DNA from: Paracoccaceae bacterium | GTDB lineage: Bacteria; Pseudomonadota; Alphaproteobacteria; Rhodobacterales; Rhodobacteraceae | Length of the DNA: 37,809 nt | Assembly (NCBI GenBank): GCA_029247845.1 | Contig: JAQWKM010000011.1 | Location: forward strand, 1-37,809 | Reading direction: 5' to 3' | Notes under the pieces: model-generated | Database searches by the model: none | Told to the model about the DNA's origin: nothing | The model's input: the letters and a program-made list of their open reading frames with translations, nothing else | Made by a program: the position numbers and the translations under genes | Part shown: positions 4,675-18,293 of the stretch, piece after piece | Layout: each line of letters begins with the position of its first letter | Position numbering within the stretch: the first letter of the stretch is position 1

Positions 4675-6286
4675 AAGCAGTGAACGTGGTGACCTTCTTT
4701 TGGATGTAAAGGGTTTAAAGATTCAGGGTTTTTCTGATGAGAAGTGGCATGACATAATCAAAGGCATAGATTTGAAGTTGCATCGCGGCGAAATCATGGG
4801 ATTGATTGGCGAGTCTGGTGCTGGAAAGTCTACACTTGGATTGGCCGCGATGGGCTACACGCAGCCTGGCTGTCGTATCACAGAAGGAAATATACTTTTT
4901 GATGGTGCTGATCTAGCTGGTCTTTCTGATGTCCAGAAAAAGAAATTCTGGGGAAATAGAATGACTTACGTAGCGCAATCAGCTGCGGCCTCATTTAATC
5001 CGGCACATCGACTTATTTTACAGACAACAGCTTCGACTATTCGCTCTGGTGCTAAGAGCAAAGACCAAGCTTATAGTGATGCAATGGATCTTTATAAGGA
5101 GCTGAACTTACCTGATCCACAAAATATTGGTGACAGGTATCCTCATCAAGTATCGGGTGGACAACTGCAGAGGGTAATGACTGCAATGGCAATGTCACCT
5201 CGGCCCGACTTAATTGTTTTTGATGAGCCAACAACAGCTTTGGATGTAACGACCCAAGTCGAAGTACTCTCGGCCATGCGCAAAATCGTGGAAAAATTTA
5301 ATACTGCAGCGATTTATATCACACATGATCTTGCGGTAGTGGCGCAGATGGCAGATTATATAAAAGTTCTGCGTTATGGTAAGGAAGTGGAAGAAGCGCC
5401 AACCCGGAAAATGTTATCTTCTCCTAAAGAAGAATATACGAAATCACTCTGGTCTGTCCGGTCACTGGAAAAGCAAGAACAACAAAAAGGTGAAAGTGTT
5501 TTATCCCTCAAGAGTATCGATGCAGCTTATGGCTCCGCAAAAGTTCTTTTTGATGTCAACATAGAAGTAGCTAAAGGCACAACTGTTGCTGTCGTTGGTG
5601 AATCCGGTTCGGGTAAATCAACAACGGCGCGGGTCATTACCGGCCTCCTGCCACAATCTTCTGGTATCATAAGTTTTGACGGTGAAGAATTACCAAAAGC
5701 TCTTAAAGATCGTACAAAAGAACAAAAGCGGCGTATTCAAATGATTTATCAAATGGCTGATACCGCGATGAACCCTCGACAGACTGTCGGTGAGATCATC
5801 GGTAGACCGTTGCAATTTTATCTTGATATGAACGGTGCTGAGAAAAGAAAACGAACTTTAGAGTTGTTGGAGATGATTGAGTTGAATGGCGACTTTATGC
5901 AGCGCCTTCCGAGCGAACTATCAGGTGGTCAGAAACAACGCATTTGCATCGCCCGCGCACTTGCGGCTAATCCTGATTTTATTATTTGTGATGAGGTCAC
6001 GTCTGCTCTCGACCAGATTGTTCAGGAGGGCATATTAAAGCTTTTATTGCGGCTGCAAAAAGATCTGGGCCTAACTTATTTGTTTATTACCCACGATATT
6101 TCAACGGTCAAAGCGATTTCGGACCAGGTTGTTGTTATGAATCAGGGTTCAGTTGTGGAACAAGGCCAGAAAACTGATGTATTCCAGCCTCCACACCCAG
6201 CCTATACCGAACTGTTGCTGTCGTCCGTTCCAGAGATGGATCCGGATTGGCTAACAAATCTTAATGCGGCACGGCAGGTAGATTAA
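4667..6286 (+). CDS. Fused double ATP-binding subunit of the family-5 ABC importer
   Basis: An ATPase of about 539 residues made of two complete ABC domains in one chain, as in GsiA, DdpDF and related fusions. Domain 1 has GESGAGKST (Walker A), SGGQLQRV (signature) and DEPTTALD (Walker B). Domain 2 has GESGSGKST, SGGQKQRI and DEVTSALD. Each D-loop and H-loop region (ITHDLAVVA, ITHDISTVK) is also present, so both sites look competent. I choose the ATG at 4667, which overlaps the permease stop in ATGAATAA. A longer frame from 4625 would only read back into the permease gene. The protein powers import from the inner face of the membrane. Confidence 0.9.
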   Translation: MNKSSERGDLLLDVKGLKIQGFSDEKWHDIIKGIDLKLHRGEIMGLIGESGAGKSTLGLAAMGYTQPGCRITEGNILFDGADLAGLSDVQKKKFWGNRMTYVAQSAAASFNPAHRLILQTTASTIRSGAKSKDQAYSDAMDLYKELNLPDPQNIGDRYPHQVSGGQLQRVMTAMAMSPRPDLIVFDEPTTALDVTTQVEVLSAMRKIVEKFNTAAIYITHDLAVVAQMADYIKVLRYGKEVEEAPTRKMLSSPKEEYTKSLWSVRSLEKQEQQKGESVLSLKSIDAAYGSAKVLFDVNIEVAKGTTVAVVGESGSGKSTTARVITGLLPQSSGIISFDGEELPKALKDRTKEQKRRIQMIYQMADTAMNPRQTVGEIIGRPLQFYLDMNGAEKRKRTLELLEMIELNGDFMQRLPSELSGGQKQRICIARALAANPDFIICDEVTSALDQIVQEGILKLLLRLQKDLGLTYLFITHDISTVKAISDQVVVMNQGSVVEQGQKTDVFQPPHPAYTELLLSSVPEMDPDWLTNLNAARQVD

Positions 6287-7510: not shown

Positions 7511-9505
7511 TCATTTGAATGTACGGCTGATGGTTTCGTTCATGTCTTTTTCAAAGACTAAAACGTCATTTTCAAATGCCTCAAGTCGTGCATTGAGATA
7601 GAAGTTGTCTTTATCTGATCTCATCTCGGCATAGGTTTCGGTGCGAACAGACCAATCTCCGCGAGCGTTCTCGCAGGTCCAGTGGGTTTTCCCATGAGCT
7701 GAGAGTGGGTCGTCGGGATGGATGCTCCACCATTCGCGCGCAATTGATCCATGCACCAATCCGTGATCCATGTCCTCGCCCTTGCCAAAATCATCTACAA
7801 TCTCAAGCGTGACAATCCCAGTTTGCATATCATCGATAACGCGCCGTGAATTTGATGGTTCGCGCAAATATTTAAGCTGCCATGGCGCATCACTTTCCGG
7901 TGGGGGAAAGGCTCTTTCGTCCTTTGACCCACTCCGACGCGTTGGTAACTTAAGCGAACCCGACAAAAGAGTTAAATTCGCAGCTTTGGGCATAGGCCAC
8001 AATAGTGGCCAATAGCTGGTTGAGATGGCAAGCGATATTTTATGCCCTGCTGGTACGCGATAGGCGATTTGATCAAGGTCTAGCGAGATATCGACATATT
8101 CTGCGACAGGAAGGGGTTCGGGCTGGGAATGGTCTATCCTGTGGCAGAGGTTCAAAACCCCATAAGTAATCCGTGTAGAGGCGCCATCGGGGTGAGTGTG
8201 ATTAAGCCGAACTGCGATTTGGGCTTTGGGTTGATCCGATATCAGCCGAAGTGTAACTTTGGGAGCCCCTACAATATCGCAGGATGTTTCCAGCCTTTCT
8301 GAAGTATATAAAACTGAAAGCGCATTATCAGGGCGCTGATCTCCTGAGAGTTCCGGCCCAAGCCAGATCGCACAATATTCCCCGCCATTCATACCGCAGG
8401 TTTGTGGTGAGCATATTTCGTCGCTAAGCTTTTCTGAAATGTTGCCCAATTGATTATGTGCGCTCAGATAATATGTCTGCCAACTTAGGCCATTGGGCCA
8501 ATCGTCCTCGGTGATCCAAATTCCCGTGCGCTTTTGATAAAATGTTTTGGGGCGCACGCCATCCATCAAATAGGCAGTGTAATCAGGATAAGTTTCGACA
8601 CCTGTGTCCTCGCCTTTAAGCCAGTGATCCCACCAACGCAGCGCCTCTTGCAGAAATCCAATCCTTGGTTCGGGAACCGCAAAATGGGGATATTTATGCA
8701 CCCAAGGACCAACGATCCCTTTGACCGGCGCAGTTAGGTTCTCGACCAAATGGGCAACTGTATTTTTATAGGCATCGCCCCAGCCCCCGATGGCGAGAGT
8801 TGCGGCTTTAATTGCGGGGTAGTCTTCGCAGACTGAACCGTGCTGCCAATAGGTATCTCTTATTTGGTGGTTTAGCCATTTTATTGGAAGAAATGGTTCT
8901 GCATCAAGGCGTTGAAGCCACATCTGGCGCCATTTTTCGCCGACAAGTTTGGGATCGGGCGGACGGGAGGAATACGCCCACATTGTCGACCCCCACCCAA
9001 GGTTTTCATTGAGGAGACAACCACCTTTGTAGTGAATATCATCGGCATATCGATCAACTGTTGAGCATAGCGTGATGATGGCCTTAAGCGCCGGGGGTTG
9101 CATAGCCGCAACTTGGAGCGAATTAAAGCCCCCCCAGCTAATCCCCATCATACCCACTTTGCCCGAACACCAAGGTTGGGCGGTAATCCATGCAATGGTT
9201 TCTAAGGCATCATCCAGTTCTTGTTGCGAGTATTCGTCCTCCATCACGCCTTCGCTGTCGCCATTCCCGCGCATGTCAACGCGCACACAGGCGTATCCGC
9301 GTTTAGCAAAATAGGGATGTGTCAGAGCATCGCGCGCCGTTGTTCCATCGCGTTTTCGATAGGGTAGGAATTCGAGGACTGCAGGCACAGGGTTTTGCGC
9401 TGCATCTTGTGGCTTCCATATCCTTGCAGACAATCGACACCCGTCAGGCATCACAATGCCAGCGTCTGGGATTTCCTGAATGTCCAGGATATTCATCTGT
9501 TTCAT
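7511..9505 (-). CDS. CocE/NonD-family alpha/beta hydrolase (X-Pro dipeptidyl-peptidase S15 type)
   Basis: A serine hydrolase of about 664 residues with an N-terminal alpha/beta-hydrolase domain and a C-terminal jelly-roll (PepX_C) domain. The nucleophile is in GMMGISWGGFNS, near residue 123. Likely acid and base are in GGWGDAYKN and GPWVHKYPH. VRVDMRGNGDSEG is a typical CocE/PepX strand-loop. Family members hydrolyse X-Pro peptides, acyl esters or glutaryl-type amides; the substrate here is unknown. A longer frame begins at 9535, but AGGACC at 9516-9511 sits seven bases from the internal ATG at 9505, so I prefer that start. The gene is convergent with the cysteine synthase gene. Nearness to a peptide-type importer makes a peptidase role attractive but unproven. 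Confidence 0.85.
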   Translation of the reverse strand: MKQMNILDIQEIPDAGIVMPDGCRLSARIWKPQDAAQNPVPAVLEFLPYRKRDGTTARDALTHPYFAKRGYACVRVDMRGNGDSEGVMEDEYSQQELDDALETIAWITAQPWCSGKVGMMGISWGGFNSLQVAAMQPPALKAIITLCSTVDRYADDIHYKGGCLLNENLGWGSTMWAYSSRPPDPKLVGEKWRQMWLQRLDAEPFLPIKWLNHQIRDTYWQHGSVCEDYPAIKAATLAIGGWGDAYKNTVAHLVENLTAPVKGIVGPWVHKYPHFAVPEPRIGFLQEALRWWDHWLKGEDTGVETYPDYTAYLMDGVRPKTFYQKRTGIWITEDDWPNGLSWQTYYLSAHNQLGNISEKLSDEICSPQTCGMNGGEYCAIWLGPELSGDQRPDNALSVLYTSERLETSCDIVGAPKVTLRLISDQPKAQIAVRLNHTHPDGASTRITYGVLNLCHRIDHSQPEPLPVAEYVDISLDLDQIAYRVPAGHKISLAISTSYWPLLWPMPKAANLTLLSGSLKLPTRRSGSKDERAFPPPESDAPWQLKYLREPSNSRRVIDDMQTGIVTLEIVDDFGKGEDMDHGLVHGSIAREWWSIHPDDPLSAHGKTHWTCENARGDWSVRTETYAEMRSDKDNFYLNARLEAFENDVLVFEKDMNETISRTFK

Positions 9506-11815: not shown

Positions 11816-12006
11816 AAATCGTTCCTCACTGGAACTTCAACATAGGCAGCTTGCCCCAAGTTTCAACGGGCAAATTTTACAGTTTTAATTCTATGCACTT
11901 TGACAGCGCCCGCAAAGATAAGAGGATCGGTCGGTACTCAGAGTAAGCTGACGTGTTTACAGCGGATAAATTCATGAATATACACTCACTTAAAGGAGTC
12001 TCTGAT

Positions 12007-12318
12007 ATGCGCGCACGCATTTACAAGCCAGCCCGGACGGCTATGTCGTCAGGAAATGCCAATACCCGTGAGTGGGTTTTGGAATTTGCTCCGGACTCTG
12101 CCAGAAAAGTTGATCCTTTGATGGGGTGGACATCGAGCGATGATACTCAGTCGCAGGTAAAACTGCAGTTTGAGACAAAAGAAGCGGCCTTGGCCTATTC
12201 GAAAGATAATGGCATTGACGCTGTTGTCTCCCAGCCGAAAACACGTAAAGTCAATATCCGTCAACGCGGATATGGTGAGAATTTTTCCACTGATCGAAAA
12301 GGGGCTTGGACCCATTAG
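12007..12318 (+). CDS. NADH dehydrogenase accessory subunit, NDUFS4 family (ETC complex I region)
   Basis: A small protein of 103 residues matching the NDUFS4 (18-kDa) complex I accessory subunit kept by alphaproteobacteria and mitochondria. Characteristic stretches are [41 protein letters not shown] and a C-terminal RKGAWTH. It would sit on the peripheral arm of respiratory complex I and stabilise the NADH-oxidising module. The start at 12007 is chosen because AAGGAG at 11993-11998 lies eight bases ahead; an in-frame ATG at 11953 adds an unlikely 18 residues. It stands apart from any nuo operon, as often seen in this group. Confidence 0.9.
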
Positions 12319-12376: not shown

Positions 12377-12457
12377 TACATTCTCTAATAGCAAGGCCAC
12401 AGTATGGCAGGTCGGGCGTATGCCACCGGTTCTCAGCTATTTTATTTGGTGGTACAG

Positions 12458-12841
12458 ATGAACAAGACTGAAAAATACGAAAAAGGCATGCAGGTGCGCC
12501 GCAGCGTATTGGGGGATGCGCATGTAGATCGCGCCGAGGCGTCAAAAACTGAGCTTGATGTGGGCTTTCAAGAGTTGATCACTGAGGCTGCTTGGGGAAG
12601 TGTTTGGGCTGGGGATCAATTCACAAAGCGCGAACGCAGCTTAATCACATTGGCTCTGCTGGCGGCTGAAGGAAACTCTGAAGAAATTGCTATGCATGTG
12701 CGCGCATCGCAAAAAACGGGTACAAGCCCAGAAGATATCATGGAGGCTATGTTACATGTCGCGATCTATTGTGGCGTTTCCAAGGCCAACTACGCGATTA
12801 AGATCGTCAAACAAACCTTAAGCGATCTAAAGAACGACTGA
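12458..12841 (+). CDS. pcaC: 4-carboxymuconolactone decarboxylase
   Basis: A protein of 127 residues of the carboxymuconolactone decarboxylase/AhpD-like fold. PcaC converts 4-carboxymuconolactone to beta-ketoadipate enol-lactone in protocatechuate breakdown. Seen: MQVRRSVLGDAHVDRA near the N-terminus, then FTKRERSLITLALLAA and the active-site helix region MHVRASQKTGTSPEDIMEA followed by LHVAIYCGVSKANYA, all typical of PcaC. The frame extends upstream to 12404, but canonical PcaC proteins start near the ATG at 12458. The preceding GGTGG is a weak ribosome site. Its TGA overlaps the pcaH start (TGATG), which supports one operon and the pathway assignment. Confidence 0.92.
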   Translation: MNKTEKYEKGMQVRRSVLGDAHVDRAEASKTELDVGFQELITEAAWGSVWAGDQFTKRERSLITLALLAAEGNSEEIAMHVRASQKTGTSPEDIMEAMLHVAIYCGVSKANYAIKIVKQTLSDLKND

Positions 12842-13557
12842 TGAGAGAGTATTTTGCCAGAGACCACGCACGCCATCCTCCCGCCCTCACTCAAGATTAC
12901 AAATCAACAGTTTTGAGGTCTCCCAAACATGCCCCTCTCACGCTTGGACAAACAATTTCAGAAATCACTGGTCCGCACTTTGGGCAGGGTGATATTGGCG
13001 AACTTGATAACGATCTCATTCGGAATTTTGCAAAAGATGGAGATCCAATTGGCGAAAGAATAATCCTGCACGGACGCGTTTGTGATGAGGGGAGGCGCCC
13101 TGTTCCAGATGCACTAATTGAAATATGGCAGGCCAATGCAGGCGGGCGTTATCGTCATCAAAATGATGGCTATCTTGCCCCACTGGATCCAAATTTTGGT
13201 GGCTGCGGTCGGACCATGACTGATGATGCAGGTTATTATAGATTTCAAACAATTAAGCCTGGAGCCTATCCATGGCCCAATTGGGAACCCAGTTGGCGAC
13301 CCGCCCATGTTCATGTCTCGGTATTTGGTCATAGCTTTTCTCAACGCCTCGTTACGCAGTTATATTTTGAGGGAGATCCTTTGATTGAAAGATGCCCAAT
13401 CGCCAATTCAATTCCCGATCTGCGTACGCTGCAGCAACTCGTTGCGCCTTTGGATATGGACACAGCCCAGCCCTCTGACTGTCTTGCATACAGATTTGAT
13501 ATTGTTTTGCGTGGACGATTTTCGACACCTTTTGAAAACCGTCTTGAAGGAAGTTGA
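12841..13557 (+). CDS. pcaH: Protocatechuate 3,4-dioxygenase beta subunit
   Basis: The catalytic iron-bearing subunit, 238 residues, which with PcaG performs intradiol ring cleavage of protocatechuate to 3-carboxy-cis,cis-muconate in the cytoplasm. All four Fe(III) ligands of the family are visible: Tyr104 in GGRYRHQND, Tyr143 in GAYPWPNW, and His156 and His158 in WRPAHVHVSVFG. LAPLDPNFGGCGR is another family signature. Length is normal. Translation is probably coupled to pcaC before it and to pcaG after it, since both junctions overlap by one or a few bases. Confidence 0.96.
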   Translation: MREYFARDHARHPPALTQDYKSTVLRSPKHAPLTLGQTISEITGPHFGQGDIGELDNDLIRNFAKDGDPIGERIILHGRVCDEGRRPVPDALIEIWQANAGGRYRHQNDGYLAPLDPNFGGCGRTMTDDAGYYRFQTIKPGAYPWPNWEPSWRPAHVHVSVFGHSFSQRLVTQLYFEGDPLIERCPIANSIPDLRTLQQLVAPLDMDTAQPSDCLAYRFDIVLRGRFSTPFENRLEGS

Positions 13558-14189
13558 TGATGGCTCAAGAGGATAAAATCCTGCAGGAAACGCCTTCTCA
13601 AACTGTGGGGCCTTATGTGCACACTGGTCTTGCGCCATGGGCGATTGGCCTTGATGTCTTCAAAACGGATATAGGAGCTGAAATTGTAGGTCCCAAAAGC
13701 AAAGGTAGGCGCATCACAGTTTCAGGTCGTATCATAGACGGTGCTGATGATTTGGTTCGCGATGCGTTGATTGAAGTCTGGCAGGCCAATGCCAATGGAA
13801 TTTACAGACATGTGGAAGATCCCAAGTTTGGGGAATTAGAAAAAGATTTTCGGGGCTGGGGGCGGGCTTGGACCAATTTTGAAACTGGAAAATGGTCTTT
13901 CCAGACTGTCAAACCGGGACCAATCAAGGATCGAGATGGTGTCATGCATGCGCCCCATCTCAATATTTGGATTGTGGCACGTGGTATCAATATAGGTCTG
14001 AGTACAAGGATATATTTTGTGGATGAAACGGATGCAAATGCCAAGGATCCTGTATTGAATATGATCCTGCCCGAGCAAAGGCGGCAAACGTTATTGGCGA
14101 AATACCGAGATGAGAAATTAAAGACAAATGATTATGTCGTCGATATTGCCTTGCAAGGTGATCACGAAACCGTATTTTTGAATACATAA
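13557..14189 (+). CDS. pcaG: Protocatechuate 3,4-dioxygenase alpha subunit
   Basis: The structural partner of PcaH, 210 residues, slightly longer than the roughly 200 usual. It shares the intradiol dioxygenase fold (ETPSQTVGPYVHTGL, DALIEVWQANANGIYRH, GWGRAWTNFETGKWSF, MHAPHLNIWIVARGINIG) but, as expected for an alpha subunit, it does not carry the full Tyr/Tyr/His/His iron set. The ATG at 13557 overlaps the pcaH stop codon, and GAAGG at 13546-13550 serves as ribosome site. A TTG at 13554 and a second ATG at 13560 are alternative starts. Confidence 0.95.
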   Translation: MMAQEDKILQETPSQTVGPYVHTGLAPWAIGLDVFKTDIGAEIVGPKSKGRRITVSGRIIDGADDLVRDALIEVWQANANGIYRHVEDPKFGELEKDFRGWGRAWTNFETGKWSFQTVKPGPIKDRDGVMHAPHLNIWIVARGINIGLSTRIYFVDETDANAKDPVLNMILPEQRRQTLLAKYRDEKLKTNDYVVDIALQGDHETVFLNT

Positions 14190-14215: not shown

Positions 14216-15064
14216 ATGAACAAACCCTGCATCATTTGCGTCGCGATCACAGGGTCAGTGGCGACAAAGGCCGATAACCCAGTGGTTCCAACAACGATAA
14301 CAGAACAAGTTGAAAGCACCCACGCGGCCTTTGAAGCAGGCGCGTCTATTGCCCATTGTCACGTGCGTTTGGACAATGGCAAACCAAGCTCAGACCCCGA
14401 AAGGTTTGCGCGGTTAATGGAGGGGATTTCCAAACATTGTCCGGGGATGATCATTCAACTATCCACAGGTGGTCGCTCGGGTGCTGGACAAGAGCGGGGC
14501 GGAATGCTCTCGCTGAGACCAGATATGGCGTCTTTGACGGTTGGGTCAAATAATTTTCCCATGCGGGTTTACGAAAACCCGCCGGACTTGGTCGACTGGC
14601 TGGCCAGTGAAATGCATCAACACGAAATCAAACCCGAGATTGAGGCTTTTGATCTTTCTCATATTCACCATGCGGCTCTCATGCGCCGCGATGGACGGTT
14701 GTCGGGACGTATTTATGTACAATTTGTTATGGGCGTTAAAAACGCCATGCCGACGGACAAAGATGTTTTTGACTACTACATAAAAACCGTTGAGCGTTTG
14801 CTACCAGATGCAGACTGGTGTGCAGCCGGTATTGGGGCAAACCAGATTGTTGTCAACGAGTGGTGTGTGGCCCAAGGTGGACATGCGCGTACCGGTCTTG
14901 AAGACAATGTGCGGCTGGATAAACACACTCTGGCTCCGTCAAATGCCGCCCTCGTTAAGCGTGTTGTTGATCTTTGTGATAAATATCAGCGTCCTATTGC
15001 TACATGGTCTCAAGCCCGTGAAATGTTGGATCTACGGTCTGTATGTATAACTGGTACAATTTGA
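14216..15064 (+). CDS. Beta-keto acid cleavage enzyme (BKACE/DUF849, Kce family)
   Basis: A zinc-dependent TIM-barrel enzyme of 282 residues in the 3-keto-5-aminohexanoate cleavage (Kce) family. Members use acetyl-CoA to split a beta-keto acid, giving acetoacetate and a new CoA ester. Seen: IAHCHVR with the two histidines that bind zinc in Kce, IIQLSTGGRSGAG, and a late glutamate in ARTGLEDNVRL that completes the metal site. It lies 26 bases after pcaG behind AGGAAG, so it belongs to the pca operon. This context suggests beta-ketoadipate as substrate, which would yield succinyl-CoA and acetoacetate. That is inference; family members differ widely in substrate. Confidence 0.88.
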   Translation: MNKPCIICVAITGSVATKADNPVVPTTITEQVESTHAAFEAGASIAHCHVRLDNGKPSSDPERFARLMEGISKHCPGMIIQLSTGGRSGAGQERGGMLSLRPDMASLTVGSNNFPMRVYENPPDLVDWLASEMHQHEIKPEIEAFDLSHIHHAALMRRDGRLSGRIYVQFVMGVKNAMPTDKDVFDYYIKTVERLLPDADWCAAGIGANQIVVNEWCVAQGGHARTGLEDNVRLDKHTLAPSNAALVKRVVDLCDKYQRPIATWSQAREMLDLRSVCITGTI

Positions 15065-15090
15065 ATATAAGTTTCAAATGGAGTTTCTCG

Positions 15091-16710
15091 ATGCGGCATG
15101 GCGGAAAAATACTAGTTGATCAATTAAAGATTCAAGGGGTTGAGCGGGTATTTTGTGTTCCTGGTGAAAGTTACCTCGCGGCGCTTGATGGGCTTTATGA
15201 AAGTGGGATAGAGACAATCGTTGGGCGTCAGGAAGGTGGCGTTGCGATGATGGCCGAGGCACATGGCAAGCTGACAGGAGCGCCAGGGATCGCGTTTGTG
15301 ACGCGGGGACCGGGCGCTACCAGCGCTTCTGCAGGAGTTCATGTCGCCTTTCAGGATAGCACTCCAATGATCCTTTTTGTGGGGCAAGTGGCAAGCGATC
15401 AGCGTGATAGGGAGGCTTTTCAAGAAGTTGACTATCGCCAAATGTATGGACCACTTGCCAAATGGGTTGCTGAAATTGATCGCATTGACCGCATCCCCGA
15501 ATATGTCTCACGCGCATTTCATGTCGCTGTATCGGGGCGTCCGGGACCAGTGGTTTTATCGCTTCCCGAAGATATGCTATCGGCGAGGGCGGATGTATTA
15601 GACGCCCTCCCTGCCAATCCGGCCCAACAAATGGTTTGTGATGAAGTGATCAGAGAAGTTATTGATTGCCTTAAAAGAGCTCAGCGCCCATTTGTAATTG
15701 TTGGAGGAAGTGGCTGGAGCACTGATGCGGCGCGCAACCTTGGTAAATTTGTAGGAGCACTCGGCTTGCCCGTTGGGGCTTCTTTTAGATGTCAGGACTA
15801 TCTGGATAACAGACATCCAAACTATGTTGGCGATGTAGCAATCGCGCCTAATCCAGAACTGGCAGAGCAAGTGCAAAACTCCGATTGTCTTTTAATTTTG
15901 GGGGCACGCTTAGGCGAGATGACGTCGAGCGGCTATACACTTTTTGACGTGCCAAATCCGAAACAGGGCCTGATCCATATACACGCAGATGCAGACGAAA
16001 TAGGTCGTATCTATCGACCTGAGTTTGGGCTTGTCTGTCGAGCGGCTGATTTTTTGGACCGCGCTGTTTGCCTGACCAAGGGCATCACTCAGCAATCGCC
16101 CGCTGTTGCGCGCAAAAGTTATGAGACTTGGCAAGAGCCCTCACCGACCCCAGGTGCGGTGAAGATGGAGCAGATCATCCATCATCTTTCTCAAGTTCTA
16201 GCGGAAGACGCAATTATTGCCAATGGTGCTGGAAATTATGCCGCTTGGTTGCATCGTTATTTTTGTTACAAATCCTATCGAACCCAACTTGCGCCAACCT
16301 CCGGTTCCATGGGATATGGCCTTCCTGCAGCTGTGGCCGCCAAATTAAATCACCCAGACCGTGAGGTAATCTGCCTTGCTGGAGATGGCTGCTTTCAGAT
16401 GACGATGCAGGAATTTGGCACAGCAGTTCAATATGGGGCAAAAATAATTGTCATAGTGGTCAACAATGGTGTCTACGGAACGATCCGCATGCACCAGCAG
16501 CGCGATTATCCGGATCGCCCGTCAGGCACGACAATGCTCAATCCAGATTTTGCGACCCTTGCAACTTGCTATGGTTGCAGCGGCGAAGTGGTCACAAAGA
16601 CGCAAGATTTCGAAGCCGCATTTGCCCGCGCACAAGCCTCGGAAACATCCACAATAATAGAACTTAGAACAGATCCGGCGGCAGTCTCTCCGCGCACACC
16701 GATTACCTGA
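15091..16710 (+). CDS. Thiamine diphosphate-dependent enzyme, acetolactate synthase-like, function unknown
   Basis: A ThDP enzyme of 539 residues with the three-domain acetolactate synthase/pyruvate oxidase layout. The N-terminal domain has the cofactor-activating glutamate in GRQEGGVAMMAEAHGKL and GIAFVTRGPGATSAS. The C-terminal domain has the ThDP/Mg motif from AGDGCFQMTMQEFG to VVNNGVYG. The start is placed at 15091 because GGAG at 15080-15083 lies seven bases ahead; a frame from 15043 overlaps the BKACE gene. It is probably the last gene of the pca operon and ends six bases from the convergent pobA. No small regulatory subunit is nearby, so branched-chain biosynthesis is unlikely. Decarboxylation or carboligation of a 2-keto acid is possible. 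Confidence 0.85.
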   Translation: MRHGGKILVDQLKIQGVERVFCVPGESYLAALDGLYESGIETIVGRQEGGVAMMAEAHGKLTGAPGIAFVTRGPGATSASAGVHVAFQDSTPMILFVGQVASDQRDREAFQEVDYRQMYGPLAKWVAEIDRIDRIPEYVSRAFHVAVSGRPGPVVLSLPEDMLSARADVLDALPANPAQQMVCDEVIREVIDCLKRAQRPFVIVGGSGWSTDAARNLGKFVGALGLPVGASFRCQDYLDNRHPNYVGDVAIAPNPELAEQVQNSDCLLILGARLGEMTSSGYTLFDVPNPKQGLIHIHADADEIGRIYRPEFGLVCRAADFLDRAVCLTKGITQQSPAVARKSYETWQEPSPTPGAVKMEQIIHHLSQVLAEDAIIANGAGNYAAWLHRYFCYKSYRTQLAPTSGSMGYGLPAAVAAKLNHPDREVICLAGDGCFQMTMQEFGTAVQYGAKIIVIVVNNGVYGTIRMHQQRDYPDRPSGTTMLNPDFATLATCYGCSGEVVTKTQDFEAAFARAQASETSTIIELRTDPAAVSPRTPIT

Positions 16711-16716
16711 TCTGGA

Positions 16717-18293
<1,577 letters not shown>

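Follow-up and report, generated by a model that had tools for sequence, protein, structure and literature searches.

A BKACE-family gene in a protocatechuate operon of a marine Paracoccaceae bacterium: a probable stand-in for PcaIJ and PcaF, and its retention in a relative without pcaCHG

The described systems closest to the one presented here are the pca clusters of Methylobacterium, in which, as far as the available text of PMC8963497 goes, no pcaIJ or pcaF is annotated and a DUF849 gene lies between pcaG and pcaB in almost all cases. The same text raises the idea that beta-ketoadipate and acetyl-CoA are converted to succinyl-CoA and acetoacetate. In the available part of PMC12379598, the DUF849 gene is labelled kce, and a plasmid carrying pcaHGBL and kce without pcaIJF gave M. 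extorquens PA1 growth on protocatechuate, a result obtained with kce together with pcaHGBL. Judging from these texts, the role proposed below for BKACE has been published before for Methylobacterium (2022, 2025). Regarding the substrate groups of Bastard 2014, the accessible passages differ: PMC4922564 summarizes them with beta-ketoadipate in G3 and negatively charged substrates in G4, whereas PMC8963497 assigns G4 to beta-ketoadipate. Genetic data are available from R. nubinhibens, where, according to the portion of PMC12442348 (2025) at hand, inactivation of a gene called pcaI abolished growth on 4HB, whereas growth survived the loss of pcaF or of another thiolase gene, and inactivating both only lowered the final density. 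On its face, this pcaI result favours a CoA-ester route, unless the pair concerned is a SCOT; the main text of the article, in its available part, makes no mention of DUF849, keto acid, aminohexanoate or acetoacetate.

The DNA analysed here (the window, 37,809 nucleotides of contig JAQWKM010000011.1) comes from a marine bacterium and holds a cluster for the degradation of plant-type aromatic acids. The gene order is pcaC-pcaH-pcaG-BKACE-TPP enzyme, with pobA convergent, and the features are as follows.

12404..12841, + strand: pcaC, 4-carboxymuconolactone decarboxylase (TIGR02425, 175 bits, cutoff 155.7)
12841..13557, + strand: pcaH (TIGR02422, 348.6 bits, cutoff 296.4)
13554..14189, + strand: pcaG, protocatechuate 3,4-dioxygenase alpha subunit (TIGR02423, 238.6 bits, cutoff 126.25)
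14216..15064, + strand: BKACE, predicted 3-oxoadipate:acetyl-CoA acetyltransferase (NF053568, 478.5 bits, cutoff 350; PF05853)
15091..16710, + strand: acetolactate-synthase-like thiamine-diphosphate (TPP) enzyme, PRK08199 subfamily (NF006052, 829 bits, cutoff 539; score computed on 15085-16710)
16717..17964, - strand: pobA, 4-hydroxybenzoate 3-monooxygenase, convergent (TIGR02360, 663.5 bits, cutoff 538.7)

The earlier note had placed BKACE 26 bases behind pcaC-pcaH-pcaG, and this is borne out both by the coordinates (pcaG stop at 14189, BKACE ATG at 14216) and by profile scores above the NCBIfam cutoffs. An ORF check on the window shows the BKACE frame (14216-15064, + strand) to be open and intact, encoding 282 amino acids. 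The TPP gene follows after 26 bp if its start is the ATG at 15091; an in-frame ATG at 15043 would overlap BKACE. Neither pcaD nor pcaB was found with Pfam and NCBIfam profiles among the genes searched in the window, from uvrB to pobA. Between uvrB and pcaC lies a small conserved ORF (11953-12318, + strand), also present at loci L023, L025, L027 and L093, whose product, judged by eye, resembles an NADH dehydrogenase (NDUFS4-like) subunit.

The BKACE protein matches PF05853 (DUF849) with 308.8 bits against a gathering threshold of 24.8 over the whole profile (1-274 of 274), and the equivalog NF053568 (3-oxoadipate:acetyl-CoA acetyltransferase) over positions 2-273 of 274; the observation is real and a chance match is ruled out. 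It was aligned with 212 homologues, 80 from loci and 132 from survey loci, giving 213 sequences. The Zn ligands that the earlier note had seen in HCH and a late Glu are in place, H47 and H49 being kept in 213/213 sequences and E229 (LEDN) in 212/213, with a single X at position 229; E143, R225 and D230 are also conserved. By the residue roles described in work on Kce, H47, H49 and E229 are taken here to bind Zn, and E143, R225 and D230 to be catalytic. The protein belongs to the BKACE/DUF849 family, with a predicted dependence on Zn. R87 is Arg in all 213 sequences, Leu and Gln in the two other BKACEs of the same genome, and Ala in the Kce structure; it is a possible binder of the distal carboxylate.

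Judging from the operon, the family, the conserved residues and the way the genes are linked in relatives, it is highly probable that this putatively Zn-dependent BKACE acts on beta-ketoadipate and replaces PcaIJ and PcaF, the acetoacetate going to SCOT and thiolase. The predicted reaction would turn beta-ketoadipate and acetyl-CoA into succinyl-CoA and acetoacetate and would be the committed final step in the breakdown of 4-hydroxybenzoate and protocatechuate. Acetoacetate would then be activated by the housekeeping SCOT (ScoAB, encoded on another contig), and the resulting acetoacetyl-CoA would be cleaved by acetoacetyl-CoA thiolase. In sum, beta-ketoadipate and CoA would give succinate and acetyl-CoA, with only one dedicated gene required.

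The gene itself was largely to be expected; what was not is that a close relative has kept it after losing the remaining cluster genes. This relative is G196, the nearest genome (same genus, 96% complete), whose BKACE and TPP proteins are 92% identical to those of the window; their genes lie at locus L023, which is the same place as the G196 locus, the TPP coordinates agreeing within 3 bases; a profile search of this 96% complete genome gave no PcaH match. In L023 the stretch from the small gene behind uvrB up to BKACE bears a deletion scar (5669-6014) in which two scraps of the missing genes are left, each 78% identical in DNA: a 58-base piece of pcaC, and a match of 153 bases that takes in the final portion of pcaG and the beginning of BKACE. 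A broken pobA remnant (8502-9183) follows the TPP gene. Divergence between the window and L023 at codon positions 1, 2 and 3 amounts to.239,.227 and.258 in pobA, as against.051,.040 and.243 in BKACE and.054,.037 and.267 in the TPP gene; for BKACE, dN is.036 and dS.49, and dN/dS is about 0.07 (0.08 for the TPP gene). As BKACE and the TPP gene are constrained while pobA diverges evenly, both have remained under purifying selection since the pathway decayed. This speaks against a simple reading of the operon, and protocatechuate breakdown may not be the only role of BKACE in this lineage.

PcaH is likewise not over cutoff in G248, G250 and G251, the genomes of L025, L027 and L093, which keep BKACE all the same (a completeness figure is at hand for G196 only). 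The best PcaB-like match reaches 168-178 bits across these four genomes (174-178 in those of L025, L027 and L093), whereas 237 and 270 bits are reached by the PcaB-like matches of the window's genome and G247 (L024), which both have PcaH over cutoff; these two scores, too, are under the PcaB cutoff of 355.75. Genes resembling pobA at 72-74% identity are found at L027 8501-9673 and L025 1984-3177, in genomes without PcaH over cutoff. BKACE and the TPP gene are adjacent in L023, L024, L025, L027 and the window, with pcaCHG beside the pair only in the window and L024.

Outside this group, the comparison rests on a survey of 246 genomes from 245 genera, for which at least 90% completeness was requested except for the window's own incomplete genome, which was included, and on 132 BKACE loci labelled by tblastn, each contributed as a single copy by one of the other genomes with BKACE matches listed (134, of which G163 and G223 were left out). 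Of the 246 genomes, 152 contain a TPP-subfamily match over cutoff, and the enzyme of the window reaches only about 220 bits with its best solved chains. Among the 132 loci, 2 show a TPP match no farther than 6 kb from BKACE, with identities of 24-27%, and L228 has one of 43% at a distance of 6.8 kb; since the pairing is so rare in loci from other genera, it looks confined to the window's clade. The neighbours of the TPP gene in 20 other genomes are mixed, the largest neighbour cluster being present at 8 of 20 loci, where ORF calls are unreliable at high GC.

With regard to these data, it can be asked whether BKACE and the downstream TPP enzyme form a protocatechuate-independent pathway that acts on a beta-keto dicarboxylate of other origin, with the link to pcaCHG a second use or incidental. 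This is a real possibility rather than a probable one. In its favour, the adjacency of BKACE and the TPP gene is wider than that with pcaCHG (five loci as against the window and L024), G196 has constrained both genes while lacking PcaH and letting pobA decay, and none of the four genomes holds PcaH over cutoff or a PcaB-like match of 237- or 270-bit strength. However, the apparent restriction of the pairing to one clade counts against it, as does the fact that R87 and the metal site are unchanged, which makes it probable that the substrate class is the same; furthermore, L025 and L027 still carry the pobA-like genes, and completeness figures are absent for G248, G250 and G251. A narrower version, in which BKACE and the TPP enzyme constitute in this genus a separate two-gene module on a beta-keto dicarboxylate that survived the loss of pobA and pcaCHG in the sister species under selection, is advanced only tentatively and is rather doubtful. 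2-Hydroxy-3-oxoadipate synthase joins a 2-oxo acid to an aldehyde, and as a guess by analogy the TPP enzyme may make the beta-keto acid in the same manner.

The preferred reading, that BKACE ends protocatechuate breakdown in place of PcaIJ and PcaF, draws on the association of BKACE with the protocatechuate dioxygenase, which are adjacent in the window. Among the 246 genomes, BKACE is over cutoff in 178, PcaH in 158, PcaF in 160 and the PcaJ/ScoB family in 226. BKACE and PcaH occur together in 147 genomes, BKACE alone in 31, PcaH alone in 11 and neither in 57 (Fisher p 3e-22); the 31 genomes with BKACE and no PcaH over cutoff speak against the reading. At the level of the locus, pcaH or pcaG is matched no more than 2.5 kb upstream of BKACE, and on its strand, in 74 of the 132 loci, and pcaB within 1.5 kb in 40 of those 74; G060 and G106 are among these 74, yet their PcaH is under cutoff, and 41 of the 58 loci without the link belong to genomes holding PcaH elsewhere. 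Roseovarius azorensis (L097), for instance, has the order pcaH-pcaG-BKACE.

The linkage of pcaHG to either BKACE or PcaF can be given as lower bounds, the matches listed covering 147/158 genomes for PcaH, 135/178 for BKACE (including that of the window) and 134/160 for PcaF. Among the 147 genomes with PcaH listed, BKACE lies within 5 kb of pcaHG in at least 75 and PcaF within 15 kb in at least 5, and in none of the 147 is pcaHG linked to both among the matches listed. Two more PcaF-linked clusters, in G013 and G054, were found on reading L313-L328, a set of 16 pcaHG loci that represent the 5 PcaF-linked genomes together with the 11 having PcaH but no BKACE; no BKACE match is present in any of the 16. 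The distance from PcaF to pcaHG is about 7 kb or less in L313-L316, L318 and L321 and about 13.5 kb in L317, and in L314 and L316 pcaB, pcaI, pcaJ and pcaF are consecutive. At one of the 132 BKACE loci, L235 of G166, a PcaF-family thiolase (4862-6058, 68%) is found beside BKACE without pcaHG linkage, an adjacency that counts against a neat exclusion of the two.

In the window's own genome (G000), a 2.6 Mb assembly in 203 contigs that is 75.68% complete, the search for pcaI, pcaJ and pcaF suggested by the earlier note could be run. No PcaF is over cutoff in this partial genome (best 346.2 against 597 bits); the thiolase with this best score passes the general TIGR01930 cutoff and does better, at 545.8 bits, with an acetyl-CoA C-acetyltransferase model, under that model's cutoff of 688, and a second thiolase, on contig C41, passes the cutoff of the PRK08242 acetyl-CoA C-acetyltransferase model (677.8 bits against 514). 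A single CoA-transferase pair was found, on contig C33, with B. subtilis ScoAB (3cdk) as best solved match, and no PcaIJ-type transferase. Regarding the steps upstream, a weak PcaB-like gene is located at the edge of contig C17 (236.7 bits against 355.75, profile 50-334), and no PcaD is over cutoff (best 158.7 against 255.85 bits). With 203 contigs and 75.68% completeness, the absence of PcaF and PcaD from this assembly is weak evidence. The genome carries three BKACEs, the operon copy and two at 29-30% identity (L177 6633-7529 on contig C153 and L178 6770-7744 on contig C99), the latter two adjoining what by eye appear to be acyl-CoA dehydrogenase, enoyl-CoA hydratase and hydroxyacyl-CoA dehydrogenase genes.

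Such incompleteness leaves room for classical PcaIJ/PcaF, encoded on unassembled contigs, to carry the flux with BKACE as an auxiliary. A PcaF-family match is indeed over cutoff in 107 of the 147 genomes with PcaH and BKACE (10 of the 11 with PcaH and without BKACE), and the same-genus genome G196 has one of 664 bits, although such matches may, we presume, be PaaJ of the phenylacetate pathway. This explanation is nevertheless improbable, with pcaHG linked to both BKACE and PcaF in none of the 147 genomes among the matches listed, with a ScoAB-like pair as the sole transferase found in G000, and with PcaF not over cutoff in 40 of the 147 genomes. The corresponding figure is 1 of 11 for PcaH genomes without BKACE, a difference in the expected direction that is not significant (p = 0.29).

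With regard to the fate of acetoacetate, the earlier note had proposed that the CoA-transferase and the thiolase are bypassed. Overall this is not so: since BKACE chemistry releases acetoacetate, a transferase (SCOT) and an acetoacetyl-CoA thiolase would still be needed, and the net reaction is that of the classical route. SCOT genes do occur near BKACE, with scoA within 6 kb in 8 of the 132 loci and scoB in 6; L208 and L220 are stretches that end before scoB. The chance expectation for scoA is 0.4-1.1 loci at 1-3 copies per genome (Poisson, 4.0 Mb genomes, genera taken as independent). The BKACE copy of G103 was chosen knowing of a nearby ScoB, and the scoA count without G103 is 7/131; G034 was noticed likewise. 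By tblastn ends, scoA starts 6-172 bp 3' of BKACE in L181, L208, L219, L220, L250 and L273; in L180 it follows BKACE at 1.3 kb, and in L218 it precedes BKACE by 4.6 kb. Only four of the eight scoA-linked loci are also linked to pcaHG, and PcaF is over cutoff in six of these eight genomes, both of which count against the preferred reading.

The linked ScoA and ScoB are 79-88% identical to ScoAB of G000, as compared with 42-50% for PcaI and PcaJ of L314 and L316, which stand beside PcaF. By these identities, the BKACE-linked transferases are of the acetoacetate SCOT type and not of the operon PcaIJ type, so the route would consist of BKACE and then SCOT and thiolase on acetoacetate, the steps being moved and not removed. 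In G034 the order is pcaD-like-pcaC-pcaH-pcaG-BKACE-pcaB-scoA-scoB, with no PcaF over cutoff; scoA and scoB of this cluster (L180 9047-10376) match another copy of the pair elsewhere in the genome (L329 2195-3836) at 96.3% and 97.3% DNA identity, which looks like a recent duplication. In the portions of the literature available, the search found no description of SCOT genes within a pca-BKACE operon.

The replacement of PcaIJ and PcaF in one step can thus be retained in part. It is in keeping with the NF053568 assignment, with the lack of a PcaF over cutoff in the partial genome and with pcaHG being linked to BKACE or to PcaF, never to both, among the matches listed; it has to be qualified in that transferase and thiolase steps are still needed on acetoacetate and that protocatechuate may not be the sole substrate source. 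The proposed pathway is essentially correct and was published earlier; what the present analysis adds is the family-wide either/or pattern, the link with SCOT and the retention in the sister species. If true family-wide, many members, with named loci including Ruegeria, Leisingera, Sulfitobacter and Roseovarius, would end protocatechuate breakdown via acetoacetate and not via beta-ketoadipyl-CoA. This would also offer an alternative account of the R. nubinhibens genetics, as far as these are described in the available text, since the needed transferase could be a SCOT acting on acetoacetate.

That BKACE is instead a Kce of lysine fermentation or a dehydrocarnitine-type enzyme, present in the pca cluster by accident, is scarcely credible and a Kce identity was rejected: the Pfam family is the same and NF052387 (lysine-fermentation Kce) matches at 251.9 bits, but this is well under its cutoff of 382 and below the 478.5 bits obtained with NF053568, the Glu of Kce 2y7d at the alignment column of V15 is V or L in 213/213 BKACE sequences, and the two further BKACEs of the genome share only 29-30% identity with the operon copy.

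Compared with known systems, BKACE shares its family and type of chemistry with the lysine-fermentation Kce (2y7d-2y7g), whose score as a solved chain is just 178.6 bits (2y7d). The best-matching solved chains, 3chv, 3fa5 and 3no5 (406-472 bits), are homologous over almost the whole length and are labelled merely as DUF849 or uncharacterized. The likeness to the NF053568 equivalog, by contrast, comprises a match over nearly the full profile, far over the cutoff, together with the predicted metal and catalytic residues, and no difference was found. By the available texts, the Methylobacterium kce/DUF849 clusters have in common with the window a BKACE right after pcaG, an operon without pcaIJ or pcaF and the same proposed reaction; there, pcaB follows kce, whereas here the TPP enzyme follows BKACE and the PcaB-like gene is on another contig. 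Lastly, the net reaction of classical PcaIJ and PcaF equals that of BKACE, SCOT and thiolase, as computed here from the stoichiometry of known enzymes; PcaIJ and PcaF act on beta-ketoadipate, whereas in the BKACE route CoA transfer and thiolysis would act on acetoacetate.
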